Shown here piece by piece: positions 14,688 to 62,522 of a DNA stretch of 64,000 bases. Made by a program: the position numbers and the translations under genes. Below the pieces are notes generated by a model that searched no databases, was not told the DNA's origin, and saw only the letters and a program-made list of their open reading frames with translations. The DNA comes from Kineosporia sp. NBRC 101731 (lineage in GTDB: Bacteria; Actinomycetota; Actinomycetes; Actinomycetales; Kineosporiaceae), in NCBI RefSeq assembly GCF_030269305.1, contig NZ_BSTC01000003.1:124001-188000 (forward strand), written 5' to 3'. Position 1 is the first letter of the stretch. Each line of letters begins with the position of its first letter.

Positions 14688-17600
14688 ATGCCTCGTCCCA
14701 GTGACTGGTCCGTGCTCGGTCTGCCCGGCGACCCGACGCCGGGTGATCCGGAGGCTGTTCAGCAGGTCGTCGACTACACAGAAGCGATCCTGCTTGCGGT
14801 CAACGACGCGACCACCGGTATCAACGCGATCATGACGGGCACCGGTGACGGTGCCTTCGTCGGTAAGACGGCGGACGCGTTGCGCACCGAGATCGACACC
14901 AAGGCGAGGACTTTCCTCGAAGCAGTGAGGACCGCATTCGCCGGCGTCGCCCCCGCGTTGCGTACGTACCTCCTCAAGCTGGTCGATGCCCAGGCCGTCG
15001 CCGACGGCGCGCTGAACCAGGCCCGCGGGCTGCCGGAGGACGACCCCCGGGTCCAGGCCCTGGCGCTGCAGGCCAACGGGGCCAAGGAGGATCTGACCGC
15101 GGCCGGTAACACGGCCGCGGCCGCGGTCGCCGCCGCCTCGCACGCGACCAACCCCTGGGGCAAGAGCTCCTGCGACAAGTTCTGGGACGTGCTCTTCTGG
15201 ATCACCCTGGTGATCACCGTGGTCGCGATCGTCTTCGGCGGCCCGCTCGGGCTTGTCGCGTTCGCCGCCAACTCGGCGCTGCTGGTCAAGACCATCGTCG
15301 ACGTGAGCAAGGGAAAGGGCGGGCTCGCGGAGATCCTGATGTCGCTGTTCGGCATCCTGTTCCCCAGCACCCGGGCGATCCGGTTCAAGGACATCGTGGG
15401 CCTGCTGCGCCGCGCGGGCACCGGCCTGCGGTCGGCGTGGCGGGGGATCACCGGGGCGGCCGGCGGGGCCTGGCAGGTGATCAGCTCGATCACCTTCAGC
15501 CAGATCATCCGCGGGGTGCTCGACATCGGCACGCTGATGGCCGGGGGCTATCGCGCGGGACGGATCTGGATCGTCAAGGGAGCAGCGGGCAACGGGGCGT
15601 TCGCCCACGGCCTGACCGGCCTGAAGGGCTTCAGCATCACCGCGGCCTCGACCCGGTTCATCAACGGCCTGACGGCTCTGCCGCGGCTCGCCCGCGGACA
15701 GATGAACCGGGCGCTGAACGCCTTCGGCAACAGCCGGTTCGCCGCCTTCACCGCGAAACACCTGGGCGGCTGGGCCTGGCTGCGGATCTTCACGCCGATG
15801 GCCGGCCACGAGATCCGCAAGCTCGGGCTCGCCGGGGCGTTCAAGGTCGGCATCCTCGGACGAGGCCTGATGATCCCGGCCTACCGCGACGGCGTGATCC
15901 TCGACCGGATGGGCAACACCCTCCAGATCACCAAGGGAGTGGTCAATTTCGGGGCGAGCGCGGGGCACGCCGGACTGCACCTGGCTCCCCGCCCGGAGAT
16001 CGTCCTGCCCGGCTCGGCCGGCGGTCAGGCGCCGACCTGGATCACGGACCTGCCGCCGATGGGGCTGAGCGGCGTGATGCGCGGCTTCCCGGGCGGAGAC
16101 CAGCAGTTCATCCGCACCCTGGTGAACACGCCGATGGTCGGTCAGGTCGGCCCCGTCGGCCCGCTCGCCGGGACGAACCGGCTCAGCGAGGGCACATGGT
16201 CCCTGCACAACGCCACCGCGGGATTCAGCAGCGCGCCCTCCGGGCTCATGGTCCCGGCGGCCCACGCCGCCGCTCCCGGCCTCGAGGTGCCCGGCGCCGT
16301 CCGGGTCATGACCGCCACCACCGACGTCCTGAGCAGTGCCCGGTTCAACGGGACGTCGCACGTGCTGGGCCAGCTCGACACCCTGACCCGGATGGGCAAC
16401 CTGCACCAGCTCCAGGGAGCCGGCGCGGTCCACGACCTGCGGGCCGGTGCCACCCCGCTGGACCTGGCCACCGCCCGCGTCAGCGACGGCACCCGCTCGA
16501 TCCCCCTGAACGCGGTGAAGGTGACCGACGGGACCCTCACCGTCCCGCTGCAGGACCTGCGGCTGAACGCGGGCGGCACCACGCTGCGCCCGCAGGGCCT
16601 GAGCGTCGTGGACAACACCGTCACGGTCACCAGCCAGGGCGTCCAGATTCCCGGCGGCACCCCGACCGGGGCCGGCCTGAAGTTCACCGACGGTCAGGCC
16701 GTCGTGGACGTCGCGCGGATCCGGCTGACCGGCGGTTCCGAAGCGGCCCTCAACCTGGCCGACCTGCGGATCGCCGACGGCCGCGGAACGGTCCTGGACA
16801 TGAGCCGGCTGATCCTGACCGACCACACGGGAACGGTCGCGGGCCTGCTGCGGGCCGACCCGAACCTGCCCGGCATCAGCGGGCTCAGCGACCTGATGGC
16901 CGGTGGACGCTCCGCGAACGAGATGATCGGCCTGCCCGGGCCGAGCGTGCTGGACGAGGTCACGAGAACCCTCACCGGCCGGGATCTGCCCGGCCCGGCC
17001 CTGCAGCGACTGCGCAGCGCCGGGGACCCGCTCGAAGGGTTCGTGGTCCGGGAATTGCCCCAGATCCTGGACGGCGAGTTCTCGCTGCTGAAGATGTCGG
17101 ACCACGAGATCAAGATCCAGCTGTCCGAGGACGCGGTGTCCCGCGTCGCGGGGAGAACGGCCGAGGGAGAACCGCTCTCACTGCCGGGAACCGAGCGCTC
17201 CGCCCTCGACCTGGTCACCGAGACCGACCTGCCCCGCCCGGCCGGCCGCGACTCGGCCAGCGCCCTCAGCACCCGGCTGGACGAGGCCGGCGTCGACCGC
17301 GGGTCCGCGACCGACCTGGCTGGTAGCCGGGCGTCCCGGGCCCAGGCGGTGCCGGGCCCGGAAGGGGCGGTTCCGGCGCCCCTCGACGCCGAGGTGCGGG
17401 CCCTGCTGCCCGACGCCGCCCCGGCGCCGCACATGCCCGGCGAGCCGGCGGCCCCGCCGCGCAGCGCCGGCGACGGTGCGGTGGGCAGCAGTGTCGGCGG
17501 TGAGCATCCCCTGCCGTCCAGCTTGATCGTCTTCACCCGTGAGGTCGCGCCCCGGATCTGGGGCGACAGCGCCGAGATGGTCAGCAACTTCGTCAAGGCC

Positions 17601-20600
17601 CAGGCCCTCGCGCACCAGGCCGAGACCGTCTTCCGGGACGCCCTGAAGGCGGGCCTGGACCTGCACACCCTCGACGGTGTCCGCCAGCTGAAGAACGTCC
17701 AGGTGGCCCGGGCGGTGCTCGCCCGGGCCGAGCACAACCTCCATCAGGTTCACCCCGGCCTCACGCTCACCGACATCGACGCCCAGGTCCGGGCGCTGCG
17801 GGTGCCGCAGGAGGAGAGGCTGCGCTTCACCACCTCCCAGATCGACGACGCCTACGCCCGGCGCATCGCCGAGGTGAGTGCGACGTCCGAGGGTCCGGGA
17901 CTGGTTCAGGGACGCGACCTCTGGCACACCGGTGACGTGGACCCCCGGGCCGGGCTCGGCCTCGATGACGTGCAGTGGCGGGCGCTCGAGCGGGCCCAGG
18001 CCCAGGCCGCCCTGCTCCCGGACCTCGGGCACTCGCCGGCCGCGTCCGGCTCCGTGATGGCCCCGCCGGTGCGGGAGGTGCTGAGGTCCGTCGAGGTCTC
18101 ACCCGACAAGCTCTTCGCCTTCGAGAAAATTCGCCGGCTCGGCCCGTCGCCGTCCCAGATGGCCGAACTCCGCCAGCGGCAGTTCGGTGCCCGGTACTCG
18201 GACGAACAGGTCCGGCTCCTGCTCACCCGCAGCACCGATGAGCTCAGCCTGCGCCAGGCGATCGGCAGCGACCCCGAGTACGGGAGGATCCGGGAGGCCT
18301 TCCACCAGGCCCTGAGCGACCACGTCCGGACCTTCACCCCGGTCCGCGAGGCTGCCGAGACCGTCGAACTGGCCACGCAACGGCTGACGTTCGCGCAGTG
18401 GTCGGTCGATCCGTTCCGTCCCGGGAAGATGCCCGCGGGCTGGGTCCCCGAGGACGTCCAGAACATCTGGACCGCTCGGGACGCCGCCGTGCGCCCGGAC
18501 GGGTCCGGGGCCCAGGGGATGACCGGGCGCCTGTCCGCGAACGGGACCCTGACCGAGGCCCCGGGAGAGCTCTCCCTGCAGTCCCTCTCGCGGGTCTGGT
18601 CCGACTACGTCGAGGCCGTCGCCACCTGGATCGAGCACGCGCGGCTGACGTTCCGTTCCCAGCCCGGCGCGGTCCTCGACCCGGAGGTCCTGGCCGCCGA
18701 GCTGTCCTCCCGGCTGGGGGAGCGGTTCGTCCGGGAAGCTCTCTTCGAGAACGCCTCGCTGACTGCGTTCTCGCGGTTCGACCGGTCGGTCGCCGACTTT
18801 CACCCGGTCGAGGGGAACGCGTTCGGCACCGGTGCGGTGGAGCGCGTCCGGGCGGCGTTCGACGGCGACCTCAGAGCGTCCTTCGACCAGAAGCTGCGCG
18901 ATCTGCGCCTGCCGCTGGACACCGACGCGGTCCGGGAACGGATCTACGCGGGGCCCGAGTTCGCGCACCCGGGGGAGCACGGCCCCGAAGGACTGGCCGG
19001 GTGGCAGCGGGAGGTCGGCCGGCTGCTCGAGAAACTTCCCGAGCGACTGGCGTTCGAGGCCCTGGCGGGCCGCAACCTCGACGCGGCCGGGGCGCAGTTC
19101 CGGGGCCTGGCGGAGGGCCGGGAACTGCATCCGAAGGTGCACGACGCGCTCGCCGCCGACTATCGCGAGGATGTCGCCCTGGCGCTGCACGAAACCTACG
19201 GGACGCGGGCCGGGCGCCGGTCCTGGCTCGATCACGAAGCGGCTCACGAGAACTCGTTCGGCGACGGCCTGGACCGGGACTACTCGTTCGGGGACGGCGG
19301 GGCCACGCGGCGCCAGCTGCTGGAGTTCATGCGGGGACTGCCCGAGCAGCCGGGCCCGCCGGTCAAGGTCACCGCGCCGGACCGGATCGCGGCACCGGAC
19401 CAGCGCCTCCTGCGTCAGCCCAGCGATCTCCTGAACGATCCAGAACGAGTTCTGCAGCAGGACCTTCCGGTGTTCCGGGAGCTGCTGGAGAAGAACCAGG
19501 TCCCGTTGAAGGTCCAGGAGTCGGTGATCCGGCAGGTCCAGGAGTACGTCCCGACCCTGAAGGAACGGGTCGAGGCGTACAGCGCGCGCGAGGGCGCCCC
19601 GGCGCAGCCGGGTGACGCCTCGACCTCGGTGGCCGTCGATCTGGTGGCCCGGGAGTACCGCGAGCACGTGGTCGGTGCGGTCGAGCACCTGGCCTCCTCG
19701 TACGGGCGGGCGATGTCCGAGGCGACGCGCTGGGCCGACGCCGACACGTCGTCCCTGGGCTCGGGCCCGGGGCAGCGGGTCGTGACCGAGGCGGCGATCC
19801 TCGAGACGCGGGTGCGGGACGAGGTCTCGACCCTGCTGGGGGATCAGCTGCATCTGGCCGAGGAGGGCGCCTGGCGGCGCCGCCAGGCCCGTTTCGTGCG
19901 GGGCGAGCAGCACGCGCCGGTCCTCGGAGAGCGTCTGGACTCGGCCGTCCAGGAGCTCGTCTCCCGCGAGATCCGGGCGCCGTGGGTGGTGCCGGGGCCG
20001 GGCGTGGTGGAGTCGTTCGACGTGAGCGGGGCCGGCCCGGCGCCGGCCGAGCCGGCGACCGTGACGCTGAGGCCGCTGTCGCCCCGGACCGAGCCGCCCG
20101 TCCGCCACGTCCCGCTGGGCGAGCGGGTGCTGCGGCAGCCGGGCGACCTGCTGACCGCACCGGACCGGGTACTGGAGCAGGACATTCTGGTGTACCGGGA
20201 GGCGATGACCAGGAGCGGTGTCCCGCAGGCGGTTCAGGAGTCGGTCGTCCGGCAGGTCCAGGAGTTCGTCCCGGCCCTGAGGGAACGTGAGGCCGGGGCG
20301 GGGGCACCGGCGCAGGCCGAGGAGACCTCGGTGTCCCACCTGGCGCGGGAGTACCGGCGTCACGTGGTGAGCGCGGTCGGGCACCTGGTCGACGCGTACG
20401 GGCGGGCCCTGCCCCGGGCCGAGGGGTCCCTCGACACCCAGAGCCTTCTCGAGGCACAGCCCCTGGACCCGGTCGCGACCGAACGGGTCCGGGACCAGGC
20501 ATTGGCGTTGCGCGAGCGGGTGCGGTCCGAGATGACGACGCTGCTGGGCGACCAGCTGCATCTGGGCCAGGAAAGCGCCCGGCAGCAACGGGCCGAGCGG

Positions 20601-23600
20601 TTCGCCCGGGCCGAGCGGCACGCCCCGGTCCTCGGGCAGCGCCTGGACGCGGCCGTGCGGGAGATGGTCACGAGCCCCCAGCAGTCGGTGATCGAGTCGT
20701 TCGACGTGGGTGGCGCCGGGCCGCTGGTGGCCGTCCCACCCCGCATCGAGCCGAAACCCCCGGCCTCGACGGTCGAGCCCGAACGTCCGTACGTCCCCGG
20801 CCTCCAGGAGTTCCTGCCCCGCCCCGATGACCTGCTGAACCGCCCGGCGCGGGCCTTGATGCACGACCTGCCCCGCTACCACCGGATGATGAACCGTGCC
20901 GGGGTCCCCGAGAGCGTCCAGGTGTCGGTGCTGAACCAGACCCGGACCCACGTGATGTCCGCGGCCGACCGGATCCGCCGGTACCAGGACGAGGAGGGCT
21001 TCTCCCGGGCCCGGGCCGTCTCCACGGTCGCCTGGGAGTACCAGACCCAGGTGGTGTCCGCGGTCCGCGATCTGTCCGCCGCCTCCGCGCAGGTGCGGGC
21101 CGCGACCCCGGCGATCCACAGCCACGTCACGGACCTCGTCATGACGAGTGACCTCGGCCCGGTGCACCGGCAGCGGGTCCTGGCCCGGGCGGAATCCCTG
21201 GTCGATCGGGGCGTGCACCGGATCGCCGAGGAGCTCGGGAACGGCCTCGACCTGAGCGACCCGGACCTGTCCGCGCGGATCGACCGCAACCTCGGGGCAG
21301 CCCACCGGCAACTGCGGGCCCTGCAGACCCGCCTGGGCGAGACCACCACGAAACTCGTGTCCCGGGAGCAGCGTCCGCGAGGGGCCACGGTCCCGCTCGC
21401 GGACTTCGGCCCGGACGACGTCCCCCGCACCACCCTCGACCGGATCGACGCGCTGGCCGACGACCTCACGCGGGAGAAGGCCGCGACGAACGACGATCTC
21501 TGGATCACGATCCAGGAACGCGGCGACCCTCTGTCCGCCGCGGGCCACGACGAAACGGGGCCGAGCGCCGGCCGGCTGCGGGCCCACCTCGAAGAGGTTC
21601 TGCGGCAGAGGGGACTGACGGACGCCTCCTACCGGATCCGGACGGTCCGGACGGTCGTCCCCGACGGCCCCGATCTGCTCGTGCGCACGGTGTTCTCACC
21701 GGTGCCCCGGATGCCGGAACTGGAAAAGCTCGACGAGGTCGAGCATTTCGTCGGGCTGTCCATCAACGCCGGGCGTACCTCCGTCGTCCGGGTCCTGCGC
21801 GAGCGCATCAGGCAGGCCCTGGCCGAGCCCGGGACCGACCCGGAGCGGGCCCAGACCCTGAGCGAGCTCGACCGTCGCATCGGGCAGGCACTCGCGCTCA
21901 CGCCGACGATCGGGGCCACACCCCTGCCCCGGCAGATGCACGTCGTCGCCGACCGCGACGACCTGAACCCCGAGGCACTGGAGAACCTGGGGCGGTGGCG
22001 TCACGCGACGGGTGACAGCGCCGATCTGCACCTGTGGACGGTTCCGGGCGCGCCCCTGTCCGAGGGGCAGCGAGCGGCCCTGCGGGACGTCGTCGTCCAC
22101 GAGAGCGACACCGTCGACCTGGTGGACGCGGCCGGTGGCCGCCCGCTGGTCCAGCGCCTGCACGAACTGCTCGCCGAGGGCTCCGGCGCCGCCGCCGCCG
22201 ACCTCGTGCGCCTCAGCGCCCTGTCGGCGCTGGGCGGCGCCGTGGTGAGCCTGGACGTCGCGCCCGGCGCCTTCACCTGGGCGGACCTGCCGTCGCTGGT
22301 CCTGCGGGCCGACGACCTGCCTCTCGTCGTCTCCCCGGTCGTCTCCCGCGGCCCCGGGCCGGTGCAACCGGTGCTCGAGGCCGGCTGGCTGAGGAACGGT
22401 CTGGTGCTCGCCGTTCCGGGCAACCGGCTGGTGACGCGGTTGTTGAGCCAGGTGACGGGGCCGTCGCCGGAGGCGTCGGCGTTCCGGCTCTTCGCGGCGC
22501 ACGACCTCGGTCTGCGGGGCAGCGACGGGTCGCCGACCGCGACCGCCTCCGACGCCCGCGTCCTGCTGTCTCCCGTGCTGGAACAGGTGCGGGACGCGGT
22601 GGTCGTGGCCGACGGGGCCCGGCACCCACGGGTGGGCCGGATGAACGGCACCCGCGACCACACACCCCGTCTTCAGGTGCGGGCCGGGTTCGACGCCCGG
22701 GCCTTCGAGCACGAGGGGACGCCGGTGGTGGACCTGACGGTCCGGGTCGGCTTCCGCGACGCCCAGGGAGCCGAACTGCCCGCAGTCGAGGCGGACACGA
22801 TGCTCCGCAAGGCCCGGGAGGGCGTCCACCGGCACGTCAACACCGGCGACTACCGGGTGCCCGGGCTGGGGCGCCTGCACCTGAGTGTGGAAGCGGCGAG
22901 CGCGGACGCGCCCGCGCACCTCAGTGTCACGGTGACCGATCAGGTGGCGATGGACCAGGAGCACTGGCCGGCGGACGCGGGCCCGCTCCAGATCGCGCAC
23001 GAGATCGGCCACCAGGTCGGGCTGCCCGACGAGTACCGGGACGAGATCTCCCCGCGGCGGCTCGATGTCGGTGGCAGCCTGATGGGACGCCTCGACCAGC
23101 CGGCCGAGGGCGGCCTGGTCCCGGGAGGCCTGCGCGACCGGCACCTGCAGCGGTTGCACGCCATCATCGGTGACCCCCCGGTCGCGGTCGCGCCCGCGGT
23201 CCCGGGCGAGGAGGTCCTGGCCTTCGAGGCGGCCCGGGCCCGATCGACGCCGTGGACGGTGAAACACGTGTGGGTGGACCCGGTGTCCACCCCGGCGCCG
23301 GGCCGGACCGTACCCCGGGTCAGCGGCCCGGGCGGTGGCCCCTCCGGTCTTTCGTCGAGCAGCGCCCCCTCGAGCGCGTCGCACTCCCGGTCCGCTTCGC
23401 GGCTGTCCCGGCGTTCGGGTCGCAGCGAGGCGCTGCCCCTGCCCAGCGTCGCCGATCTGGCGTCCCCCGGGTATCTCGGGGTGCCGCTCCCGCACCGGAC
23501 ACCGTCCGAGTCCGGGTCGCCGTTCCTGCCCGGGACGCCGTCGGGGCCCGGCAGTGCGCTCGAGGAGGTGGGGTCGCCGTCGGGGCACAGCCTGGTCAGT

Positions 23601-26600
23601 GACCCGGGCCCGGTGTCCGGTCCCGAGGACCAGCTCTACCGGGACCTGATGGACGAACTGGCCCGCATCCGTGGTGTTCTCGGCGTCTCCGGGACAGGGG
23701 AGACGGCGTCCGGGTCAGCGTCCGTGTCGGCGTCGGCCGAGGACCGCGCGATCATTGACGCGCTGATCCGGGAGGCCCTCGGCGGCTCCGAGGAGGCGGC
23801 CGCGAATCTGCGCGATCTCGACCGGGTCCGGATCGCGCTGGACGACGCGTCGCTGAGGAGCGACGTCTCGACCGTGCGCCAGGAGATCCGGATCGTCTGG
23901 GCCGACGCGGCCCGCGCGGTCCAGACGGCCGACGCTCAGCTCGGTGAACGACTGGCGGCGGACGAGGGGACCACCCGGAGAGGACTGCTCGAGGACCTGG
24001 TGGTGGCCGGGCTCACCGCGGAGCGGCTGGACGCCACGTTGCGGTCGCTGCCGGAGGAACCGGGCGCCTGGGGGCGTCTCGACGCGATCAGGAGGAGCCT
24101 GGACGCCGAAACCACCGCCGCACCCGGTGAAGTCGCCGACCCGACCCACCGGGAACGGGCGATCACGCTGGCGAACACCGCCTTCGGCCGGGACGACCTG
24201 GCCACGGCTCTGGCGGCCAGCCACTTCCACCAGCGGCTGGCCGAGCACCCGGTCACCGCGCTCCCGGCGGGAGTGCGCAGGGCCGTCCTGGAGGCGAGGC
24301 AGCGCTACGTCGACAGCCTGCCGCAGGCCAGTCTGCCCGCGGGATTCGCCCGGGCGGACGGCCACTTCGGCTTCGGCGAGCACGGGAGCGCCGACAGCTT
24401 CGACGAACATGGCTTCGACACCGAGGAGTTCGTTCGTGGTGTGGTCGATCGCGACGCGGTCCCGGCCGCTCACCGTCCGGCCCTCCGGGACGCGCTGAGC
24501 GCCCGGATCACCGAACTGGACCCCACGACCGCCGCCCAGTTCATGCTCGAGGGCGGTCTGCGGGTGACCGCCGGCCCCCAGGTGATGATCGTGCGGCTGC
24601 GGGAGGTGGACCGGGCCGGCGCGCGGCGGGTCCCCCTGTCCCTGACCGGCACCGCCCCGACCGCCGCGGGCCCGATGGACACCCTGCTCATGCGGTGTTC
24701 CGTGCTCAACCAGTCGCTGAGCCGCAGCGGGACGATGGACGCGTCCTCCTGGCCCTCGATCGCCCTGACCGGTGCGCCGAGCGTCATCCCGAACGCCGGT
24801 CTCACGGCGACGTCGACGACGAGCCGCAGCCAGGGCAGCGCCCTCTGGAGCGCCGTCAGCAGCGGGATCGGGACCTCCGGGGCCCGGGTCCTGATCGACT
24901 TCCCGGCCCGGATCAGCGTCCAGATGCAGGACGTCTCGACCGGTGTGCTGCACGCGGAGCAGATCGCCCCGAGACCGGGCCGCCTGCGTCTGGGGTTCTC
25001 GGAGAAGGCACTCACCGACGGAGAGCACACCGGGCCGGAGTACACGTCACCGGGCGACCTCCCCCTCACCGACGCCTTCCACACGGTCACGCCCGGCATC
25101 GGCTCGATCGGAGGGCTGGGCGGCCTCCGCCACCAGCTCGTCACCCGCTACACGGTGGGGCAGGAGGGCCGGCCGGCGCTGTTCCCGTTGTCCTCGGACG
25201 CGCTGTCGCCGATGGAGACCTGGTTCGCGGAAGGCTCGATCACGCTGCTGTTCCCGCGTCTTCTGGGGTCCCGCCTGCCCCTGCCGCCGCTGGCACTGAG
25301 CGGGGGGCGTTCGCTGACCCTTCACGTCGGTGCGGAGATCGTCTCCGTCCAGCGCCAGGGCAAGACCCTGCCGGTCCCGACCACGCTGGACAACAGCACC
25401 TGGGGCGGCCAGATCGTCTCCCGGGGAGGCGGCGGCGGGCTCGGCGCCACCTTCGGGTTCTGGGGACTGCCCCTGACCGTGGGGGACTGGTCGCCGTACG
25501 GGACCCTCGGTGCGGCACTGAGCATCTCGAGGTACGTGAGCGTGCAGAACGCCATGAACCTGGGGCAGAGCAACAAGGTCGGCCTCCGCGGTCCGAGCGT
25601 TCCGTACCTGCTCCAGACCCGGTTCACCGTCTCGGCGGAGATGCAGGGGCCGTTCATGGCCGTCGCCGACCGCGGCCGGGCCTCGGACCCGGTCGGCGAA
25701 CCCGTGGGCGCGGACGTCGTGCACACAACGACAGTGATCGTCCACGTCACCCAGGACATGGTGGCCCGGTTCGAGGAGAACCTGAAGGGCCTGATCGCGC
25801 AGCAGGAGGCCGCCCTGGCGCCACCCTCCCCGACAGGAAGTGCCTTGCCCGGGCTCGTTCCGGAGGTGCCGACCGTCCGCCTCCTCTCCGGGACGGGCGC
25901 GGGCCTGGGACTCGAAGGCCTGCCGGACATCCCGCCCCCTCCGCGGTTGCTGATCTCGTCCGAGGCCGAGGCCGAGGACATGGGCGCGGGTGTCGCCGGG
26001 ACGTCGACGGCGCTGCGGCCCCCGCCGGAGCTGCTACGACCGACCGGATCACCCGCTCTGACGGGGCATCTCGGGATCAGCCGGACCCGCAACCTGGTCC
26101 CGCGGTTCCTGCGACTGCTCGACGAGTCGGAAGACATCCTCTTCCTCCGGCCGGTGCCCGAAGAGACGCCCACCGCGGACCCGGCCCGTGGCGAGGACCC
26201 GCAGGGACGAACCGCCCGGGTCGGAGCCTGGACACCCACGCAGAGATCGCAACTGAGATTGTGGCTCCTCGAACGGTTCGACGAATCGTCGGTCCGGATC
26301 AGGCAGAGAGAGATCTTCGAGGAGTCGGGCCGCTCCGCGACCTTCACCCGCAAGCACGACAACGGCGACCTGGAACACATCACGTTCCGCCTCGCGGCCC
26401 GCCGCCACGCACCGGTCGAGGAGCCCGTGCGGGTGGACGACGCCAGCGTCACGGTCACGCCCAGCGGCTTCATGGAGAACAGCCACGCCCAAGGCAGATC
26501 CACGTCCATGTCGGTGTCCGGTGGCGGCCGCGTCTACGTGAGCCACCCGACCTCGGACGACGTCGGACTGAACGCCCGGCTCGTCGCCCAACTGCAGGCC

Positions 26601-32600: not shown

Positions 32601-35600
32601 TGGTTCTCGGCCGCCGCGATCCTGAGCGGAGGCGCCCTCACCTCCCTGTGGAGGGCTGATCTCTCCTTCACCGGGGAGATCCAGGTGCTGTCCGGTGCCG
32701 AGCACGTGGACATCCCCGCTCTTCTGACGCACGGACCCCAGGCCGATCTCATCCTTGACCTCGCCGGTGAACGGTTCGGCACTCCCGAACGGGTCATGGA
32801 GACGTTCTACGGTCAGGACATCCCGGTCCCGAAATGGTCTCCGGTGATGAATCTGTCGGCTGACCAACTGCTGGATGAGGTCCAGGCACACCTGGAACTC
32901 GGCGGGGTCGGCACAACGGTCCTGCTGCGCCGAGGGAACGCATTCGTGGGCACGGCACGTCATCACGAAGGGCTGTACCTGTGGCTACCGGCGGTCCCGG
33001 AGGCCGACGCCCACGCGGTCATGTCCCTGGACGAAGGGTGGCCCGATCTCAGCGCCGAACCGGACCAGGTCCGGGTCTCGGCGGTGGTCGTGGATCCGGG
33101 GGGTCGCGTGCAGGCCTGGCGCCCGGAGTCCGGGCCGATCCGTCTCAGAGACGGATGGCAGGCCCTGACGCCCGTCGGCCGCAGTGGCGTCGTGGTGCTC
33201 CGGAAGGGGACGGGACCGGTCAAGGTGCCCGTGCTTCCGGAGGAGCCGGGGCGGACGTCCCTCATCGTCACGGGGCAGATCGGGGCGGTGAGCGGTGCCG
33301 AGATCGGGGAGCAGGTCTTCGCCGTCCTGCGGGCCCGGGAGAAGACACGTTCCTGGCGGATCTGGGGAAAGGGCCAGGAGGCCGCGCTCATCCGGCGGGT
33401 GGTGAGTGAACTGGGCGTGGACGTCGTGTACTCGCCGCAGGAGACGAACGTCGAGACCCGGCAGAGTCCCGGAGGCTGGGCCCGGGTCCGTCCTCACACC
33501 TTCGAAACGGTCGCGAGCGGCTCCGGAGCCGGGACCGTCGTGGGACAGGGCTGGCTGGTCGATGATCTGGGGCAGCGCTTCAGCCCGGTCCTGCCCGGAA
33601 GCGGCGAGGCGGCGCCTGTCCGGCGGACGCACCTGCCCCTGGGCGACTTCGCCGGGAGGGTCTTCGGGACCCCCCCGGTGTGGGACATCCGTTCCGGTGA
33701 CGGCTGGGAGGCCGTGGTTCCGCGGGGGACCGATGTCGCCACCCGGCCGGTACCGGCGACGGAGCCGGACCGGCTGACCGTGCTCGTCGATGGCGACGGC
33801 CGCGACGAGAACCTGCTCGAATCGGTGCTGAAGGCCCACCGGGGCACCCGGGTGCGACTGCTGGTGGGGAACGTGGACGTCGGCTTCGCCGTCCGGACGG
33901 CGGAAACCTACGGGCTCGATCTGATCTTCGCCGCCGACCAGGTGCGCAGAGTCGATGACAAGCGGCCCGGGGGCGGGCAGCTCTTCCAGGTCGAGCCCGT
34001 GCGAGACCTGGACGTCCGGTCCGGAAGCGTGCCGGCCGCTCGGATCAGTGACGACCTGACGGATGTCTACCGAGGCTGGCTCCGCGTCCGGGCCGGCGAC
34101 GACGGGGTCCTCGAGGTCGTGCCGACGGGCGAGGTGGTCTTCCCCATGGTGCCCTGGGACCGCGAGACGCGCTGGCCGGACGTTCCTCCCGTCCACGTCA
34201 CTCAGGCGCACCCGGTTCGGGCCTTTCACGAGAACTACCAGCTGGGGGCGACACCGTCGCCGGTGTCGATGTACAGGTTGCGGACACCGGCCGGATTCGT
34301 TCTGTCCGACGTGCAGGCCGTGGAGCAGGTGGCCAGAACCCTTCCGCCGCACCCCGGGCGCCCGCTGCTCTCGGTGGCTCAGCTCCACGACCCGAAGACC
34401 GCGCAGGAGGTCCTCGATCACTGGCGGGACCACCTGGGAGACCATCCGCAGGTGATCCTGCACGATCGGCGACCCCCGTACCCTGACCAACTCCGTCCCG
34501 GTCGGGACATGTCGTCCCGGCTGCCCCTTCCGCCGGTCGGGCAGGACTGGCACCGAACGTACGCGCAGGCGCTGGCCGACCCCGATGCCGGCCGGGTGGT
34601 GGATGTCGTTGCTGCCCCCCTGCCGGCTCACGCCTTCAACCTTCGGCAGGCCGACCCGCTGACGCTGGACGAGACCGAGCAGGCTCTGACCGAGGAGTTC
34701 TCGCTCCACGAGGTGTCGAGCCAGATCCAGGCGCCCTTGAAGATCTGGGAACACGTGCTGCACGGGCAGGGGCTGCTGCTGCCGGGCTGGGCGAAGGTGC
34801 CCGTCGCGAACAGCCATGCCGATCAGCACATCCACCGGCTCAGGGAGCAGGTGGGGGCCGAGCTGACGTTCCTTCAGGACGCGACGACTCCCGACCCGCT
34901 GAAGCAGCTGGTTGCCGAGCTGGCCGACAAGAAGAAGCGGAAACCCTACCCGCACGGTGCCGTCCTTCGGGAGTTCCTGACCACAGGGTCGGTGCCGGAC
35001 GGCCCGCAGGGCCGGGGGGAGTTGATCCGGGACAACCTGGAACAGCTTTCGCGCCTGCTGGGCTCGTGGCCGGGGCTCCCGGAGCCGGTCACCGCTCACC
35101 CCGGGGTACGAGTGGTCGGCCAGGTCCTCGCGGGTCTGCAGAGACTGGAGGACTTCTCGAGGGCTGTGTCCGCTGCGGACCGGCATCATGGCTCGCAGGA
35201 CGTTCTCGATGATGTGCTGCGGGTCGTCGCCGGCTCGTCGGGTGCCGTGCCGCCCAACGAGTGGACCGAGCCACTCCGGTACCGGGCGAGAGTGATTGAC
35301 CTGCCCGACGCGCGACTGGTCGAGCTGAGGCTCCACGTGCACCTGGTGCCGGAGCCCGACGTCACGTGGGGCGACCTGCGCGGTGTGATGGCTCGAATGC
35401 GCTCCGGGCTGGCCCGCAGCTGGAACGCGACCCCCGGTCTGGTGGCGCACGGAACGAAGGTCTTCCTGCGGGTCCGGCCCACGATCACCACCGGCCCGTA
35501 CGAGCCGCCGGGCGCCCAGATCATCCGGGTCAAGGCCGGTACCGGGCACGCGTCCGCGGATCTGGTATTCACCGAGTCCCCCCGTATCGACCTCACCCAT

Positions 35601-38600
35601 GAGGCAAGCCATCTCTTCGGGTTGCCGGACCGGTATGCGAACTACTCGGGGACGTTTCCCTTCCTCCTGCGCCGCGAGCGCTTGATCAGGAGGAGCACCG
35701 ACGACCATGACCTGAGCACAGCTCGCCCCCTCCCCGGGCAGCCGGAGCACTGGGCCCAGGTCGGGTTCGAGCCCACGTCGCTCGACCAGGGAACCCTGAT
35801 GTCGACCATGACCACGGAAGCGCTCGGTGCGCGTGACGTACGGACCGTGTACGAGCTGGTCATGGCGTCCCGCCCCGCGACGACACCGATTTCTGACGTG
35901 GAGATGTCGCGGGGGAAGGGAAAGACGAAGGCGAATGCCCTTGCGGTACCGCCTCTGACACAAGGTTTCGTCGAGCACGTCCTGGCTCGACACGAGAACC
36001 GCCTGAACGGTGCGATCTCACCGCAGGACGCGAGCGCGGTCCGGCTCCAGGCCTTCCACGACTGGCAGGTAGGGCCGGCCGAGTCGGCGGTCCGCACGTT
36101 GCAGGACCTCGATGATCCGCAGCTGCGGACCTGGTTCCGCGAGGAAGCCGAGGAGATCGTCGGCCGGATCAGCGATTTTGGGGATCTGGACATGTCGCCG
36201 GATCCGACGGCCCGGTTCCTGGCGGAGAGCGTCGTGCCGGTGGCGGCGGGGCTCTTCCTGCTGGAGCGGCAGTCGGACGTGAACGCTTCGAGGGTGGGGA
36301 CCTCTGACCCGGCCCGGTCCCGGGCGGCACGGATGCGAAGCCGGATCACCGATCCGGAACGCCGGCTCGTCACGCATCAGATTCAGCGGGTGGTAGAGCT
36401 TCTGGATCTGCGTCCCTCGTCCGCCGGTGATGCCCGGGTCGCGCAGGGGCCGGGCTTCGGCGCGGTGGACCTGAACGGTCAGGAGCCGACGTCCGTCGCC
36501 CGGGTTCTGCTGCCGGGAGTGCATCAGGAGATGCGGCTTCTGGGGGTGCCCGAGAAGTCGCTGGCGGACGAGTCGCGGGTGGCCGCCTCGCTGAGCCGGA
36601 TCACCGGCTCGCTGGAGCGTCCGCTGCGGCTCGCCGCGGACGTGGCCCGCGAGATCACGGACGCGAGGATGAGGGGCGGCGCCGATCCGGTCGTAGCGGC
36701 GGCCGAGGCAGCCGTCGACCAGGCCGAGGAAACGCGGAGCCGGGTCCAGAACGCTCTGGTCACAGCGAACCTGGCGTATCTCTGGACCGGCCCGGGCGCG
36801 CTGTTCACGGCCGTCGAGGGGTGGGGCGAACAGGTCAACACCACGTCCTTCTTCAACCGCAGCCGGCAGTCCCGGATGCACCAGCAGATCGTCGGTGAAC
36901 TGACGCAACCGGGGAGTGCGGTTGCGGTCTACCTCAACGGGCTCCCCGAGATCCTGGCCTTCCGGGAGGGCGACGAGATCGTCTGGTTCCCCCTCACCGG
37001 AAGTAGTGCCTTCGCCGAGCCCATGCGGTTGGAGGCGAAGCACCTGCCCGACTGCGACCGCTTCTCCAGTCTGGTCCTGCAGAGCGCTGTTCCGGCGCCC
37101 TCCAGCGCCGATCTGGGCCGCGTGATCCGGCAGATCGCGTTCTGGCCGCTGATGGCCGAGGCGTCTGCCCGTGCGCGCCTGTATCCCCAGGTATCGGGAG
37201 AGGCTCTCTTCGAGCCGGTTCCGAGCGGCCTGCCCGGGTCACTGGCGGAAGGACTGGTCGCGAATCTGCGGAACCAGGGCAGCTTTTCCAGCGTCCAGAT
37301 ACGTAGTGACGGGGTATTCGCCGGGACCGCCTTCAATTCCGGTGGCACGATGCTCTGGCTGGCCGGCAGCCCGGAGATCGAGGGCTCGGCGGTCAGGCAG
37401 CTCGACCTGGCCGCAGACCTGGGGCTGCTGCCCAGCACCGACCGGGTGGAGGTAGCGCTCGTCCGTGGCGACGGTTCCGGGGCGTCCTGGTGGGCGAGAG
37501 GTGACTCCCGGTGGTCCGTCAGCAGGCGTTCGGATGTCGTCCATCAGTTCTACACGTCCGTGCTGCAGGGCCATCTGCACGACCTTCTGCATGACCTCCT
37601 CCGGCATGAACTCGGGCTTCCGGAACGCAGTGAGATTCCCCTCGAGCAGGTGGAGACCGATCTCCTGGAGACTTTCGAGACACGACTGGAGAACGTCGGT
37701 GACACCATCATCGTCAGCTCCCGCGGGGCGCTGATGGGGGTGGCGCATCTGGCCGCGACCGGGCGACTGTGGTTCTCCGAGGCCGCCGGCGCCGGGTTCG
37801 GCGGCCCGGTGCCGCTGTGGGAAGCGGTATTGCCGGAGCCCGGGCTGCTGGACCCGATCGAGGTGGGACACCGACCGGACTTCGTGCCGGAGCTGCCGCG
37901 TCTCCACGCGAAGATCCGGCAGTACGTGTCGGGCCGCATCGGTACGGCGGGCGGGCTGGTCGAGCTGCTCTACGGAGCCCGGACGAACCACGAGTTCGCG
38001 CCGGTCCGACGTCCCGAGGGCGTCGTGGTGTCGGCAGAGCTGGTTACCACGGTGGAATCGGGCGGCCCGGGAACGACCGTCCTGGTCCGGCGGGGTGAGA
38101 TGTTGCTGGGCGCGGGCCACAACCAGGCCGGGATCCTGCTCTGGTTGTCGGACCGGTCGCGGGACGGCGGGCCGCCGGTCGGGCTGTTGCCCAGGGGCGG
38201 ACAGGAGTGGGAAGCACTTCTGTCCGGGGACGACATCACGGTGGCGGTCGTGGCCCCGGACGGCTTCGCGGGTATCTGGCGGACGACCGGCTCGTTGGTC
38301 CCACTCGGCACCGGATGGACTTTGGAAGAGCTGACCGGGTCCGGGGCCGTCCTGGTTCACGGGAACCGGCCGGCCGATCTGGTGATACCGCTGTCCGAGC
38401 AGGACCGGACCGCTCTTGTCGTCGCCGACGACCGGGGAAGGCAGGGACGAGCGGACGTCGAACGACAGGTCCGGGCCTTCTTCGGGACCGCGCCGGCCGA
38501 GGGGGCGAAGGCCTGGCGGCTCTACGGCGATCCGTTGACCTCGGCCTTCATCCGCGAACTGGTCAGCGATTTCGAGCTGGACATCGTGCACACGCTGGAT

Positions 38601-41600
38601 CGGGTCGGCCAGGACTCGCTGCTCAGCGAGATCATCTGGTTGAGGACCCGGTCCTACCAGCAGTTCTCCGACTCCGGCGGCCAGGCCTGGCTCGTCGATG
38701 ATCTCGGTCCTGGGTTCCGGGCGGTGCCGCCGGAGAGCGAGAACGTTGTCGAGACCACCGAAACCCTGGGCCGCGCGGACGAATGGATCTCGTACGGAGG
38801 CCTGGCCTGGGCGCTGTACGCCGGTCCGGGCTGGACCGTCGTCACCCCGAGGGCCCAGGATGTCTCCCGCTTCCCGGTTCCCCCGGCCGAGGAGGGGCGT
38901 CACGTACTCGTCGTCATCGGTGACGGCGGGGTGCTGGAAGTTCAGCAGCTGGTCCACATGCTCCTGGCGGAACGGGAGAGAAGTCGCGTGCGCCTCGTCC
39001 TGAGCCTGGTCAGTGAGGACTTCGCTCTCAGAATCGCCGACGGGTTCTCCATCGATCTCGTCTATTCACCGGGGCGTGTGAGCCTGCGGCACGAAACGGC
39101 CGGACCGAATGACGCGGTCCTTCCCTTCCGGGCCTGGACCCAGCCCTACGAGCAGACAGCCATGGACATCGGAGAACTCCCGTTCAACGGATGGAACCGG
39201 GCGTACCGCCAGGATGTCTGGGAGCCCGAACCGAATCCGGAAGAGACCGCTACGGACGCGGACCACCCGCTCCAGATCGCATCGATGGAGCACAGCTTCT
39301 ACCCCCGGCTCGCCTGGGAGGAGGACCTGTCCACGCTCGGCGCCGTGCGCGAAGAGGCGAGGCATGTGGATGTGCCCAGGATGATCCCGAAACGCGTTCC
39401 CGGCAACGCCCGGCTCGAGGGGACAGAGGTGCCGTCATACGTACTCCGGACCCGATCCGGGGTCGTCCACTCGGATGTCCCCGTCGCCTCGGCCACGGTG
39501 GCGGCCTTGCCCGAGCACACGTCGCGCGCGGTGTTCTCGGTCGCTCAGCTGGCCGACACGAACCTGGCCTCCCGATACCTCGACGGCTGGCGCGCGCTGA
39601 TGGGGACGAACCGCGGGGTCGTCCTGCACGACAACCGGAGGGTCGCTCTGAGCCGTGACCCGCAGGCGGTCATTGATGGTCAGGCCCGGATGGCCATGCC
39701 ACCGGCGGGCCGGTCCTGGAAGGCGGAGTACGACCAGGCTCTGGCGGACCCGCGTCGAGGCCGGATCGTCAGCGTCACCTCCATCCCGGACGGCCCGGGC
39801 ATCATCAACGACGTCAACCGGATCCCCCTGCCGACGAGGGAAGAGGTCGAGCGAGTCCTGAAGGAGGAGGGGGACCAAGGAATTGACCGCACCCCCTACC
39901 ACTGGCTGGAATCGATTCTCGAGCAGGCGCTGCTTCGTTCCGGCCTGGTGCGTCCGGGCCCTTCGGCCGCGGGAACGGTGCGCGACGAGGTGCGGGCGGA
40001 ACTGGATCACCTGAAGGCGGCGGGGGTCGACGACCCGCTGGGAACACTGCTCGACGCGGTCAGCACTGCCCGCGCTCGCGAGCTCCGTAGAGAACCTCAC
40101 CCCCGGGTGGACAGTGAGGTGCTCCAGGCGTTCCTCGATCAGGATGTGGTGCCGGCCGGACCGGACCGGGCGAAGATCCTCCTCAAGAATCTCACCCAGG
40201 TCGCCTCCTGGCTGGGATCCCTTGCGGAGGTGACCGATCCGCCTCCCGTCAGTGACGGACCGGCCTGGAAGGCGGAGCTCGCCCGGTACGTCAAGGAGCA
40301 TCTGCTGAAGCTCGACGCAGACGCGCTCGAGGCCGCGCAGAGGCGGCTCGGTGTTCTGGAACGGACTGCCTCCCGGCACGACGTGCTCAGCGAGATCCTG
40401 ACCGGCCTGGCCCTGAAGCAGTGGCGCGACCGGGCAGTGTCACCGGACCGGGCGGCCCGGTTCCAGGTCCGGGTGATCGATGATCTCCCCGGAGTACGGC
40501 TGCTGGAGGTGCAGGTACGCGTCCATCTGGTTCCTGGGGAAGGAGTCAGCGCGGCCGAGGCGCAGAAGGTGGTGGCCCGGATGCGGGCAGGGGTGCACCG
40601 GAGCTGGAACGAAACCGCCGGTGTCCTCATTCACGGACGCACCATGCACGTCAAGGTTCGTGCCGAGATCAGTACCGGAAAGATGGGCGCCGGCAACGCC
40701 ATGGTCATGCGGATCAAGAAGGGGCCGGGAAGGGCCAATTCAGAAACGGTTTTCCACGACTCGCCGCCGAAGGTGCTCGCTCATGAGCTGGCCCACCGGA
40801 TCACCACGGTTGACCGGTACAACGTCGAGCCCGAGGAGGACGCGGTCCTGCTACGCCGCTCGGTGCTCTACAAACGGCGTCTGGCAGAAGACGCCCCGGC
40901 GACGCAAGGGACGTCGGAGCAGAACCCGCGGCGCGGCTATTTGGCGGGATTCCACCCGACCACCCTGGACGACCCGAACACTCTGATGTCGCGCGGGGAG
41001 GTCGTCAGCCGGCGGGATCTGCTGCGCCTGTACGAGATCGTCATGGCCGTGGACGCGGGTGAGTCGGTGACCACGAACGATGCCCGTCCACGGGTCGATC
41101 ATCCGCTTTACCACCAGGAACGGGTCCTGACGACCGTACGGAGGGAGCTCCTCCGGCAAGGACTGGATGGCATGCTGCCACCCCGCGCCGCTGCCGGGAG
41201 TGGCGAGGCCGGCGGCCTGCCGAAGTGGCATCCCCTGGTCGTCGCGACGGATCCGCAGTCCGTGGAACCGGATTCACAGGCCACCCCGGTGACCAGGGAG
41301 GTCCGTCTCTGGAACGACGATCCCGGACCACACGGGGTGACGGTGCAGATCACCTTCACCCCGCGGCCGGGAAGAGACCTGACGCCGGTGGACGTGCGGG
41401 TGATGGAGAGTCTCCAGGTTCCTGGCCTGACGCACCGGGTCTCGGCGTCGTTCGGTAAGAACACCGATGGAATTCGCCGCGATTGGTGGACCTCCACGGT
41501 GAAGACGGCGGTCGATCAGCTGACGCCGCTCACGGAGGAGGAGTGCGGCGCGGCGTTCCTGCAGGCCCAGGCGATCGTGACGAGCCATCTCCCGGCGGAG

Positions 41601-44600
41601 GCGGAAACCCTGGCCTTCGGTGGTGCCGGAATGCCGGACATCGCCCGGCAGCTGCGTCAGGTCCTGGCCGCGGTGATCATGAACCTGCCTCAACAGCAGT
41701 CGGTCTCGGTGGGATCCGAGCGGCCGGTGCCGACAGGGGCACAGCAGCGCATGGTTACCGGGCTCGCGGTGAGGCTGATCACGAAGGTTCTGCGGCTCGA
41801 GGTCACACCACCCTCACCGGAGCCGGCTTCCAGGCGTTCAGCCGTCACCGATCCGGTGGTGATGCCCGCCGAGCGGCCGGCCGCCGGTTCCGAGACGGTT
41901 CAGGACGCACTGCGTCTTCTCCTGCCGCCTCCGCGCCTGCCCCAGTCGGCCGCCGGCGCCGCCTTGACGGATGTGTTCGAAGAGCCCGTGCTCCCGGGGG
42001 CAGACGGGGGTCTGGAGCGTCAGCAGTTCGAAGATGTCCTGGTAGGAATGCATTTCCCGGAACTCTGGGAAGCGGAGGGCTCGCCGTTCACTCTCGCGCG
42101 GGGTCGGCAGCGTCTGGAGACGGCGGCCGGCCCGCAGGGGGTGGCCGAGCAGGCCCGCCGGATCATCACGGGACTGCTGACACAGCCGGGCACGGCCGTT
42201 GCCGTCATGTCCGGTCCGAGATACGTGGGGATCGCCTATCAGGAAACCGGTCTCGGATATCTGCATCTGACGGGGGAGCAGGGGTTCGCTGAGTGGACGG
42301 TTCTGGCATCCGACTGGTTCGAGGGGCTTCAGGACATTCACACGCTGATCCTGAGGAGCACGGAGCGTCCGGCGCCACCGATGCCGGTTGTGCGGGCCCT
42401 CATCCAGCGGCTGGTCTTCTCCCGCCTGGAGACCGAGACATCGGTGCACACGTTGCTGCATTCGACTCCGCCGGTCGCGGGGCTGGTCGAGCCGGTGTTC
42501 GAGGCTCCGCAGCGGATGCTCCTGGCGGACGGCCTGCAGGCGAATCTCTCACGCCTGGGCCCCGACTCGAGCGCACGGGTGTACCGCGACGGAACGCTGG
42601 CCGGAGCGGCTGCCCACATCGGGAACACGATGCTCTGGCTCGCCGCGGACAGCCCTCAGGCGGGATCCTCGGTGAGACGGCTGAGCGAAGCCGCGGAACG
42701 TGGACTGATGCCGCAGGACGGGCGGGTGGACGTCGCCTTGGTCGGCCCGGACGGAGTTCCGGCGCCGTGGTGGACGAGCGCCGACCCCCGCTGGTGGGAA
42801 GGTGACGAACCCGGCGCCGTGAACCACTTCTACGACACGGTCGTGCGGGGACACGTTCATGACCACCTGGACGACTTCCTGAGGGAGAAACTGGAGCTGG
42901 GCAGCCGTGGTGGTGAGCCCGTCAAGGACCCCCAGGATCTGACCGCGGCTCTCGACCACGGTGTAGTGAACGATGGCGACACCGTGCTGGTCAGCACATC
43001 CACCGAACTGCTGGGGATTGTCCACCGGTCCGACGGCAAGCGTCGGTGGTACACGCCGGCCGCCCTCGCCGGCTACGGCGGGCCGGTGTCGTTCTGGGCC
43101 GCGCCGGTGCTGCCGGTCGGGGTCTATGAGCAGTTGACGCTCGTCGACGTCGACCTCGACAAGATTCTCGCGGGGGCACGTGAGCGCGTGCGCCGGCATG
43201 TCTCCGCCCAGTTCACCACCGGCCACCGACTCGCCGAGGTACTGCACGGGCAGCCGCCGAAGGACCACGTCGAACCGCTCCCTCTCGCAGGGGGTGAGTC
43301 GGTGTTCGACGCACTGTCCCGGATCCTGCGGGCATCCGGCCCCGCATCGACGATTCTCCTGCGCCGGGGAGACACGATGCTGGGAGCCGCTCATCATCAC
43401 GAGGGGGAACTGCTCTGGCTGTCGGACCGCTCCGGCGACGGCGGGGCACCCATCGAACGTCTGGAGAACGCGGCCCGGGCGAAGGACCTGACGCTCACCG
43501 TTGATGACGTGTCCCTGACCGCTCTCACCCCGATGGACACCGACAGCGGCTGGCGCACGGCCGATCCGCTCACCTTGTTCGGCCCCGCGTGGACATTCGA
43601 GCAGGAGAGCGCCCCGGGGTTCCAGCCCAGGTACCGGCTCGCACGGCGCGGCCTCACCGGATCCGCGCCCTGGCCGCCGCCCGAGGTGGAGCGAGCCGCC
43701 CTCGTGATCGCGGACGGTGGACAGTCCGGTCGGGAGGAACTCGAGAAACAGGTTCGCACCTTCTTCTCCCTCGTCACCCCGACCCACGGGACGAGCTGGC
43801 GGATCTACTCGGACGACCCGTCGCCGCGCCTCGTCCGGGAGCTGGTCAGCACGTTCGGGCTGGACGTCATCCATGCGCGGGGACCCATCGATCACCGGAC
43901 GGGGCGCAGCGACCAGGGATGGACCCGGACGCGCCCGTACCGGTACCCGGCCGAAAGGTTCGGCCAGGGCTGGACGGTCGACGACCTGGGCCCGGCGCTC
44001 AGGGAGCCGGGGCCGGACACCGGCCCGGCCCTCACCCACGGCGTCAGCGCTCAGGCCACGACGATCGGCCCTGCGAAGGACTTCCTGCCCTCGAAGCAGG
44101 AGCGGACGTGGGCGATCCACGCGGGTACCGGATGGCGGGTGGTCACACCGACGGGGATGGACGTCTCGCAGCACCCGGCACCTCCGACGGAGGCTGACCG
44201 CGATCTCCTGATCGTTCTGCGGGCCCAGGGCGATCAGCCCGGAACGCAGGCGCTCGTCCGCAGGCTCCTGGCCGGTCGGCAGGGACATCGCGTGCGCCTC
44301 GTCCTCGACCGCGTGCCTCAGGAGTTCGGCACCCAGATCGTGGACGAGTTCGGCGTCGATCTCGTGTTCACGACGGGGCCGGTGGGCTTCTCCCGTATCG
44401 TCGGCGCCGGGAGTGTGAACACGCCTCTGCAGATGTCGGTCGAGGCGCACCCGGGGACGGACATCTACGAAGGCTGGTTCCGCGCCCACCGATCCGGTCC
44501 TGGAGTCACCGATGCTCTTGGGGGGCCAAGCCTCTCGAACAATTCGAGGGTCATGGTCGGCCGCACCGGTCGGCGCTTCTTTCCTGCGCTGCCCTGGGAC

Positions 44601-47387: not shown

Positions 47388-47395
47388 GCGTCGCG

Positions 47396-47430
47396 AGAGC
47401 CTGACCGCCCGATCTGGGTGGTCAGGCTCT
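47396..47430. terminator. Bidirectional terminator between the giant gene and the minus-strand operon
   Basis: A 15-bp stem (AGAGCCTGACCGCCC against GGGTGGTCAGGCTCT, one G-T wobble) has a 5-nt loop. It lies nine nt after the giant gene's stop and right at the stop of the minus-strand YbaB gene, so it can serve both convergent transcripts. Confidence 0.8.
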
Positions 47431-47831
47431 CATCGGCCCGAACCGGGCCGGAACAGCGAGTCCAGACCGATCAGCAGGTCGCCGAGCGCGTCGCCCGGAA
47501 GGACGGTTCTCGGTGCGCTGGAGGGCGTCTCGGCGGTCCCGGTCAGCTCACCGGCCCGGGTCATGGCCTCCTCGCGGGCTCGGGTCAGCACGCGCAGGAG
47601 GTGCACGGCGAGTTCCGTGCCGCTCAGTTCCCGGTGCCGCTCGTCGGCGAACCGCAGGCCGGTGATCGATCCGTGCAGGCTGATGGTCACCGTGATCGAT
47701 CCGTCGTCGCTCGACACGTCGATGGTGCTGATCTCCAGCTGATGGGCGAGGTGGGCCAGGTCTTCCTGGAGGCGGGTGAGATCGGCCAGGGCGGAGGTGA
47801 TCCGGCCGGATTCGTCGCGAGGGCTGTCCAT
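47430..47831 (-). CDS. YbaB/EbfC-family nucleoid-associated-type protein
   Basis: This is a 133-aa protein with a start at ATG 47831, preceded by AAAGAGAG. The central part matches the YbaB fold: a long N-terminal helix (L-A-D-L-T-R-L-Q-E-D-L-A-H-L), beta strands with S-D-D-G-S-I-T-V-T-I and G-x-I-T-G-L-R-F, then a C-terminal helix with A-R-E-E-A-M-T-R-A. The C-terminal ~35 residues are a low-complexity extension. Divergent YbaB proteins commonly sit beside WXG100 genes in actinobacteria, where their job is not established; DNA binding is the family expectation. It follows the 2,182-aa gene after 35 nt and is probably co-transcribed with it. Confidence 0.75.
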   Translation of the reverse strand: MDSPRDESGRITSALADLTRLQEDLAHLAHQLEISTIDVSSDDGSITVTISLHGSITGLRFADERHRELSGTELAVHLLRVLTRAREEAMTRAGELTGTAETPSSAPRTVLPGDALGDLLIGLDSLFRPGSGR

Positions 47832-60426: not shown

Positions 60427-60738
60427 TCAGGAGTCCTCGGGATCCTGACTGGCGTAGCCGTGGTCCATCATCAGGAGGTTCTCCACGGTGGAGCCGAAGC
60501 TGTCCGCGAAGTTCTTGATGTTGGAGATGGCTTCGGAGAGGTTGTTGGAGAAGGCCTGGAAACTGGTGCTCATGACCGGGCTGGACTCGTTCATCCAGAG
60601 ACCACCGTCGATCGTCAGCATGGTGGCGACCGCGGTGTGCAGGATGTTCAGGTCACTGATGATCTCGTCCTTACGGGAGTTCATCGCCGTCACGACCATT
60701 TTGACGGCTTCCGGGTCGACCTCGACGTCAGCGGGCAC
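60427..60738 (-). CDS. WXG100/ESAT-6-like small protein with YxxxD export motif
   Basis: This is a 103-aa protein; GTG 60738 has AGGAAGG upstream. It is a two-helix hairpin with the central turn G-G-L-W-M-N-E-S-S-P in place of W-x-G. The C-terminus contains Y-A-S-Q-D, matching the YxxxD/E type VII export signal. The gene is 18 nt downstream of a similar 102-aa gene, the usual arrangement for a secreted ESX heterodimer. It should be the signal-bearing partner recognised by the ATPase encoded downstream. It likely functions outside the cell or as part of substrate selection. Confidence 0.8.
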   Translation of the reverse strand: MPADVEVDPEAVKMVVTAMNSRKDEIISDLNILHTAVATMLTIDGGLWMNESSPVMSTSFQAFSNNLSEAISNIKNFADSFGSTVENLLMMDHGYASQDPEDS

Positions 60739-62314: not shown

Positions 62315-62414
62315 GGCTGGGACCTTCCTCCGGAACGTCGGACCGCCTCCGGTCCCACTCATCTGAATGACGCCAGGAGGACCCAGACCGTTCAATTCGC
62401 GGAGCGAAAGTGCT

Positions 62415-62447: not shown

Positions 62448-62522
62448 CGGCGCACCCCTGCCCGTCCCGGCGACGCCGGCGGGCCCCCGGGCGGCGGAAC
62501 CGGTTCCGAGAGTGACGAGTGG

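Follow-up and report, generated by a model that had tools for sequence, protein, structure and literature searches.

A 1.2-MDa mosaic protein of Kineosporia encoded beside an EccC-type ATPase, a possible polymorphic-toxin-like effector

Is an open reading frame of 10,899 codons near genes of the type VII secretion kind a genuine gene, and if so, what sort of protein does it encode and by which route might that protein leave the cell? The question is raised by a window of 64,000 nucleotides (C3:124001-188000) from the 8.26-Mb draft genome of Kineosporia sp. NBRC 101731, which is in 88 contigs. The gene (14688..47387, + strand) lies in a frame that is open from 14559 to 47387 with no internal stop; from the ATG at 14688 it encodes 10,899 residues followed by a single stop codon, with a computed mass of 1,174,790 Da (1.175 MDa) and a pI of 5.8. 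The protein has only six cysteines, the last of which is its penultimate residue. GC3 is between 0.80 and 0.93 in all 22 consecutive 1.5-kb slices, the last of which extends 171 nt beyond the gene, and this uniformly high value suggests that the gene is coding throughout. The longest open run in 20 mononucleotide shuffles of the gene was 402 codons, and the longest in its five remaining frames is 1,199 codons. Since the window contains no N characters and the gene no exact repeat of at least 20 nt, there is little chance of a collapsed or chimeric repeat. Translation probably starts at ATG 14688, because relatives of the protein begin at the same RPxDWSxLxLxxDPTPGD motif. Given the GC3 signal, the shuffle maximum and the lack of exact repeats, 14688-47387 is a genuine single gene, and the single uninterrupted frame claimed in an earlier note on this DNA is thereby confirmed. 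An assembly artefact fusing several genes might be suspected in a draft of 88 contigs. However, neither the uniform codon signal nor the missing repeats fit such an event, and the host genome has a second giant gene ("giant 2"), whose product is about 9,700 residues long from the conserved start and 9,761 from the first start codon. Moreover, G009, a same-genus genome in a single contig, has giant frames of 9,287 and 5,383 residues. The giant is thus no assembly freak, and the chance of an artefact appears negligible.

The start of the protein bears on the question of export. Its first part (14688..15146, +) is a predicted helical domain, modelled as three long helices with block pLDDT values of 43-92 against a whole-model mean of only 41.7. 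The Pfam T7SS_signal profile (PF21725) matches this N-terminus at 16.3 bits, under the cut-off of 27, but it matches nine of 15 N-termini at E <=0.1 (best 1.5e-8), and that of giant 2 attains the cut-off together with its neighbouring hits. These profile matches support a distant relationship of the giant's N-terminal region to T7SS_signal, sub-threshold in the window protein itself; the earlier proposal of a T7SS-like signal domain therefore stands as a distant relationship and not as a match in its own right. The [YF]xxx[DE] export motif is absent from the giant's first 300 residues, and a YxxxD/E motif is present in the WXG protein of the window, where by eye no conservation among relatives was seen. 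The helical domain is followed by a hydrophobic stretch, hairpin-like by look (15174..15287, +), which is the sole one above the hydropathy threshold used and has a counterpart in four other giants examined, making five in all. Both belong to a constant region of the Kineosporia giants (14688..19274, +; 27-47% identity per aligned piece), which we delimited by comparison with six others, namely giant 2, those of G005, G006 and G008, and two from G009. Residues 1 to approximately 1,530 align with giant 2, with the G005, G008 and G006 giants and with the 9,287-residue giant of G009, and the 5,383-residue giant of G009 has only the first 150 residues or so in common.

The gene's surroundings are of type VII type, arranged somewhat differently from what had been proposed. 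The earlier note had an EccC-type ATPase facing the giant across a convergent terminator. A terminator-like inverted repeat (47395..47431; 16-nt arms, 94% complementary, 5-nt spacer) does lie between two convergent stop codons, but it has no T-run and is not listed by a terminator scan, which listed another site, 47821-47840, instead; the gene nearest the giant, whose stop codon is the other one, encodes a YbaB/EbfC-family protein (47430..47831, -; PF02575, 28.7 bits, cut-off 25.5). Next comes the gene of a second large protein of 2,182 residues (47867..54415, -), and the EccC/EssC-type ATPase with three FtsK/SpoIIIE stretches (54505..59106, -) follows 7.1 kb past the giant's stop. It matches TIGR03924, TIGR03925 and TIGR03928, each below the equivalog cut-off. 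Beyond it are the gene of a protein with, by eye, one N-terminal hydrophobic segment, a recurrent partner of this EccC subtype (59194..60375, -), and the two ESX-like genes noted earlier, of which one encodes a WXG100-like protein with a GLW...SSP motif (60427..60738, -) and the other a long WXG-like protein of 403 residues (61103..62314, start approximate, -). At the edge of the window lies the first part of a gene whose product joins a beta-helix to an EccA/CbbX-type AAA domain (62367..63998, +; TIGR03922, 233 bits, cut-off 467); the gene runs beyond the window, and the one that follows it outside encodes a ricin-type lectin. Canonical actinobacterial ESX loci likewise have an EccC-type ATPase with three FtsK stretches, WXG-like genes and an EccA-like AAA domain. 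In contrast to these, the window locus has no EccB or EccD nearby: each has four matches in the host genome, on C1, C3, C9 and C25, none of them less than 90 kb from the locus. The locus is therefore not a complete ESX system. EccE matches are on C1 and C20.

Several further observations concern the genes around this and similar loci. A large gene that by eye is SARP/AfsR-like lies near the giant (2825-6070), as does another near a G009 giant (L083:7056-9905); the former is a possible regulator of the giant locus. Giant 2 (G000:C5:33535-62820; L016:3535-20000, L017:2-12820) is divergent from an EccC/WXG operon of its own and contains two papain-fold deamidase matches and, by eye, a long, closely similar internal duplication; near its locus (C5, L015:9470-11806) is a lanthipeptide synthetase-type gene for a kinase plus LanC-like protein. 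Elsewhere on C3 (L019:2-3616, 6397-10941) an RHS-repeat protein with 16 RHS stretches is encoded near another EccC-type ATPase. On C4, a contig without EccB or EccD matches, a 777-residue protein with a sub-cut-off T7SS_signal match is encoded close to yet another such ATPase (L018:7267-9600, 10877-15436).

Relatives were sought with a profile of the giant's N-terminal ~400 residues. Near-full-length N-terminal relatives are present in four of the five other same-genus genomes, the fifth, G007, giving a short match only. Across the class, where four candidates per genome were scored, 17 of 394 genomes (the window's own included) exceed 200 bits and 29 of 394 reach E <=1e-10. Relatives were found in Kineosporia, Frankia, Parafrankia, Pseudofrankia, Actinoplanes, Streptomyces and Embleya. 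Frames in Kineosporia, measured from stop to stop, span 6,165 (to a contig end), 8,074, 8,195, 9,292, 9,763 and 10,965 residues, and an additional G009 frame of 5,413 residues matches over the first ~150 N-terminal positions only; outside the genus, frames with a near-full-length match are mostly of 2,515-3,919 residues, with shorter ones of 400-1,517. In the Parafrankia EUN1f relative (L047:8637-9892) two stops fall inside the N-terminal match, and that gene looks broken or misassembled. The EccC linkage was searched in 21 genomes, among which G007 is the one without the full domain. In all 20 others, which come from several families, the window's EccC subtype (49-76% identity) lies within about 9 kb of at least one N-terminal relative, and this adjacent EccC is the genome's best match in 19, the exception, G236, having a contig-end fragment there. 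A table of 21 loci, in which two loci are entered twice (L041/G008 and L042/G005) and stretches end where they were excised, lists EccC in 19, a WXG-like gene in 18, a long WXG-like gene in 19, the protein with a single hydrophobic segment in 18, the beta-helix AAA protein in ten, a lectin in six and YbaB in one. Two Pseudofrankia stretches, L050 and L051, lack EccC; L048, from the same contig as L051, has it. By these sequence comparisons, the giant-type N-terminal domain is associated with a single EccC subtype, usually together with WXG-like genes. Orthologues beside eccC in other actinobacteria, which the earlier note had suggested looking for, were thus found, and a consistent lack of type VII neighbours or of the N-terminal domain was not.

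This linkage also bears on whether the giant is a substrate of the adjoining EccC at all. It could be an intracellular protein, or one that leaves by another route, with the linkage reflecting co-regulation. EccB and EccD are indeed missing from the window locus, and 1.2 MDa is well above the mass of any type VII substrate known to us. However, co-regulation would have to account for a linkage to one EccC subtype that holds in 20 of 20 genomes from several families, and for the relationship to T7SS_signal, and we regard this alternative as distinctly unlikely.

Downstream of the constant region the giant is a mosaic. A repeat of about 200 residues, helical by look, occurs in three copies in a self-comparison (19347..21269, +), and is followed by a glycosyltransferase-like domain (21459..22538, +; PF12919, E 0.0043, 16.8 bits, below the cut-off of 23.6), whose metal-binding motif looks incomplete in the window giant and complete in a G009 relative. 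Residues 3,200-5,100 (24333..30020, +) form a region of no recognised fold, which the earlier note took for a beta region; among the six giants compared it aligns only to those of G005 and G008, at 35-41% identity. From residue 5,600 on, alignment is found only to the two G009 giants, and the chain consists largely of three aligned modules of about 1,450 residues, copies A (31479..35933, +), B (36699..41138, +) and C (41979..46253, +), each ending in a metallopeptidase-like domain. The Pfam scan of the giant yields no family above its cut-off, which leaves most of its length unexplained. The giants compared share the organization of polymorphic toxins, in which a constant N-terminal part is joined to a variable downstream part. 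The same region of no recognised fold was the basis of another proposal, that of a self-assembling delivery particle with residues 3,200-5,100 as a cargo-enclosing shell. The beta-rich impression of these residues, gained from sequence, would suit it, but no relative of them was detected among PDB sequences or in the 2,182-residue neighbour, and the giant has no RHS match. The shell idea is thus left without support, which is not the same as disproof, and we consider it very improbable.

Some recurrent domains of the mosaic resemble enzymes. Four snapalysin-type metallopeptidase-like domains were recognised by zinc motif: domain 1 (22578..23240, +) and domains 2 (35178-35840, +), 3 (40362-41024, +) and 4 (45561-46223, +) at the ends of modules A, B and C, respectively. 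All four, having been picked by that motif, contain HExxH(x5)D, domain 3 without the motif's Gly. The window giant has four instances of the pattern HExxH(x5)D(x)[YFW], the G009 giants have three and two, and giant 2 has one; the G005, G006 and G008 giants and the 2,182-residue protein lack it, so that metallopeptidases are not a general feature of these giants. Nine of the ten motif-bearing segments were aligned, and since they had been selected by the zinc motif, its invariance in them is partly by construction. LM follows downstream of the motif in all nine by eye, a candidate Met-turn, and HExxH with the following D-R-Y is kept in all seven modules aligned over full length, a result independent of motif selection. 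Against the PDB, a profile of the nine segments finds snapalysin (1c7k, E 0.0032) over 21 residues that comprise the zinc motif only. The likeness to snapalysin (PDB 1c7k, 4hx3) thus lies in the HExxHxxGLPDxY zinc site, and the giant differs in that its peptidase-like domains are embedded in a much larger chain. On these sequence features, the four domains are predicted snapalysin-type metallopeptidases. Papain-fold deamidase toxin domains (PF15644) score above cut-off in the G005 and G008 giants and in giant 2, and not in the window giant. With a constant N-terminus, swapped cassettes, protease-type domains and toxin domains in sister giants, the earlier note's comparison with polymorphic toxins is supported.

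The same domains can be read in a peaceful sense. The giant could be an exported, non-toxic structural or developmental surface protein, serving in adhesion, in a coat or in wall remodelling, with peptidase-like domains that process the protein itself or the wall. Kineosporia, Frankia, Parafrankia, Pseudofrankia, Actinoplanes, Streptomyces and Embleya, where the relatives are found, are all genera that differentiate; a lectin and the beta-helix AAA protein accompany six and ten of the 21 loci; and no recognised immunity family, among known families, was found in the scanned neighbours of the giant gene. Still, conflict is the better fit for swapped cassettes and for the papain-fold toxin domains of the sister giants, and one of the six same-genus genomes, G007, does without the full-length N-terminal match. 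We regard a surface role as unlikely, if worth keeping in mind.

The C-terminus connects the giant to its large neighbour. The last domain, with the penultimate Cys (47031..47384, +), is 33% identical over 107 residues (E 3e-5) to the end of the 2,182-residue protein. This Cys tail of about 110 residues also ends the G009 relative of that protein, the 9,287-residue giant of G009 and a frame downstream of the 5,383-residue giant, and a penultimate or near-terminal Cys is kept in all five aligned tails. The ends of giant 2 and of the G005 and G008 giants are, by eye, different, and the G006 giant runs off its contig. The G009 relative of the 2,182-residue protein also matches a short region that is present twice in the window giant. 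In G009 (L083:11884-20000, L082:1-9564) the 5,383-residue giant frame overlaps the next one, which has 541 residues and carries the Cys tail, and this giant gene looks frame-broken near its end.

What the sequences show directly is that the frame is intact and the architecture a mosaic, that the peptidase motifs and the locus are conserved, and that the tail is shared. Beyond this we favour, with some reserve, reading the giant as a polymorphic-toxin-like effector with several cassettes that belongs to a reduced type VII locus; its export, toxicity and target we infer. In favour of this are the constant carrier and its export-type head, cassettes that are swapped and repeated, internal peptidase-like domains, papain-fold domains in sisters and the conserved EccC/WXG locus. 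The locus's own EccC-type ATPase would recognise the N-terminal helical domain, probably with the adjacent WXG-like partners, and thread the giant out of the cell, and the recurring hydrophobic stretch might enter a membrane, either the cell's own as an anchor or that of the target. The constant part of about 1,530 residues would be the carrier and the swapped downstream part the cargo, consisting of the degenerate-looking glycosyltransferase-like domain, the large region of no recognised fold and the three tandem modules. The zinc-metallopeptidase-like module ends may cut target proteins, or may cut the chain to release cassettes, and the C-terminal Cys domain may serve the giant and the 2,182-residue protein as a shared handle by which the two bind or are linked. 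According to PMC9600955, the WXG100-like partners of LXG toxins are in complex with the effector head and aid its export, and by this analogy the WXG-like proteins of the window are likely targeting partners of the giant. Counting against the effector reading are a signal match that stays below threshold, the absence of EccB and EccD, the failure to recognise an immunity gene, and five C-terminal stretches of shorter relatives (from Streptomyces clavuligerus, Embleya, Frankia, Pseudofrankia and Actinoplanes), in which no recognised toxin domain was found. A bolder proposal, which we put forward tentatively and would not be surprised to see fail, is that of a distinct, reduced type VII subtype, comprising EccC, the small membrane protein, WXG-like partners and often the beta-helix AAA protein, without EccB or EccD, and dedicated to exporting chains of ~0.3-1.2 MDa, with enzyme cassettes strung along the largest of them; the Cys domain would couple two large proteins into one complex.

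How does the giant compare with known systems? Like the LXG/WXG polymorphic toxins of type VII systems, it has an N-terminal helical domain, a variable downstream part, WXG-like partners and an EccC/EssC-type neighbour. Those toxins are typically far smaller, with one C-terminal toxin per chain, whereas the giant is much longer and has several cassettes, no recognised immunity gene and a locus without EccB and EccD. Actinobacterial giants of more than 10,000 residues, up to 13,652 (SACTE_5178), with several toxin and peptidase domains, including lethal-factor-like peptidase, caspase, ADP-ribosyltransferase and MCF1-SHE domains, are described by Zhang et al. 2012 (PMC3482391), and are not tied to an EccC locus in the passages that describe them. 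Going by those descriptions, the window giant resembles them in being actinobacterial, in exceeding 10,000 residues and in having several enzyme-type domains per chain, metallopeptidases among them, and is set apart by its snapalysin-type motifs, repeated modules of no recognised fold, Cys tail and link to an EccC subtype. A literature search found no publication on this locus. The novel elements are the conserved association with a single EccC subtype, which in the window genome has neither EccB nor EccD next to it, the mosaic modules that carry snapalysin-type motifs, and a Cys tail common to two large neighbours.

The conserved locus provides a handle for locating further giants, such as a 19-kb relative on a Streptomyces plasmid that is annotated 'hypothetical protein' and adjoins FtsK-domain and WXG100 genes. 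If exported, the giant would be, to our knowledge, by far the largest type VII cargo, which would raise the question of how 10,899 residues are threaded without EccB and EccD alongside. Since megadalton actinobacterial proteins are here tied to a specific, conserved EccC subtype, their export route becomes directly testable in harmless soil bacteria.
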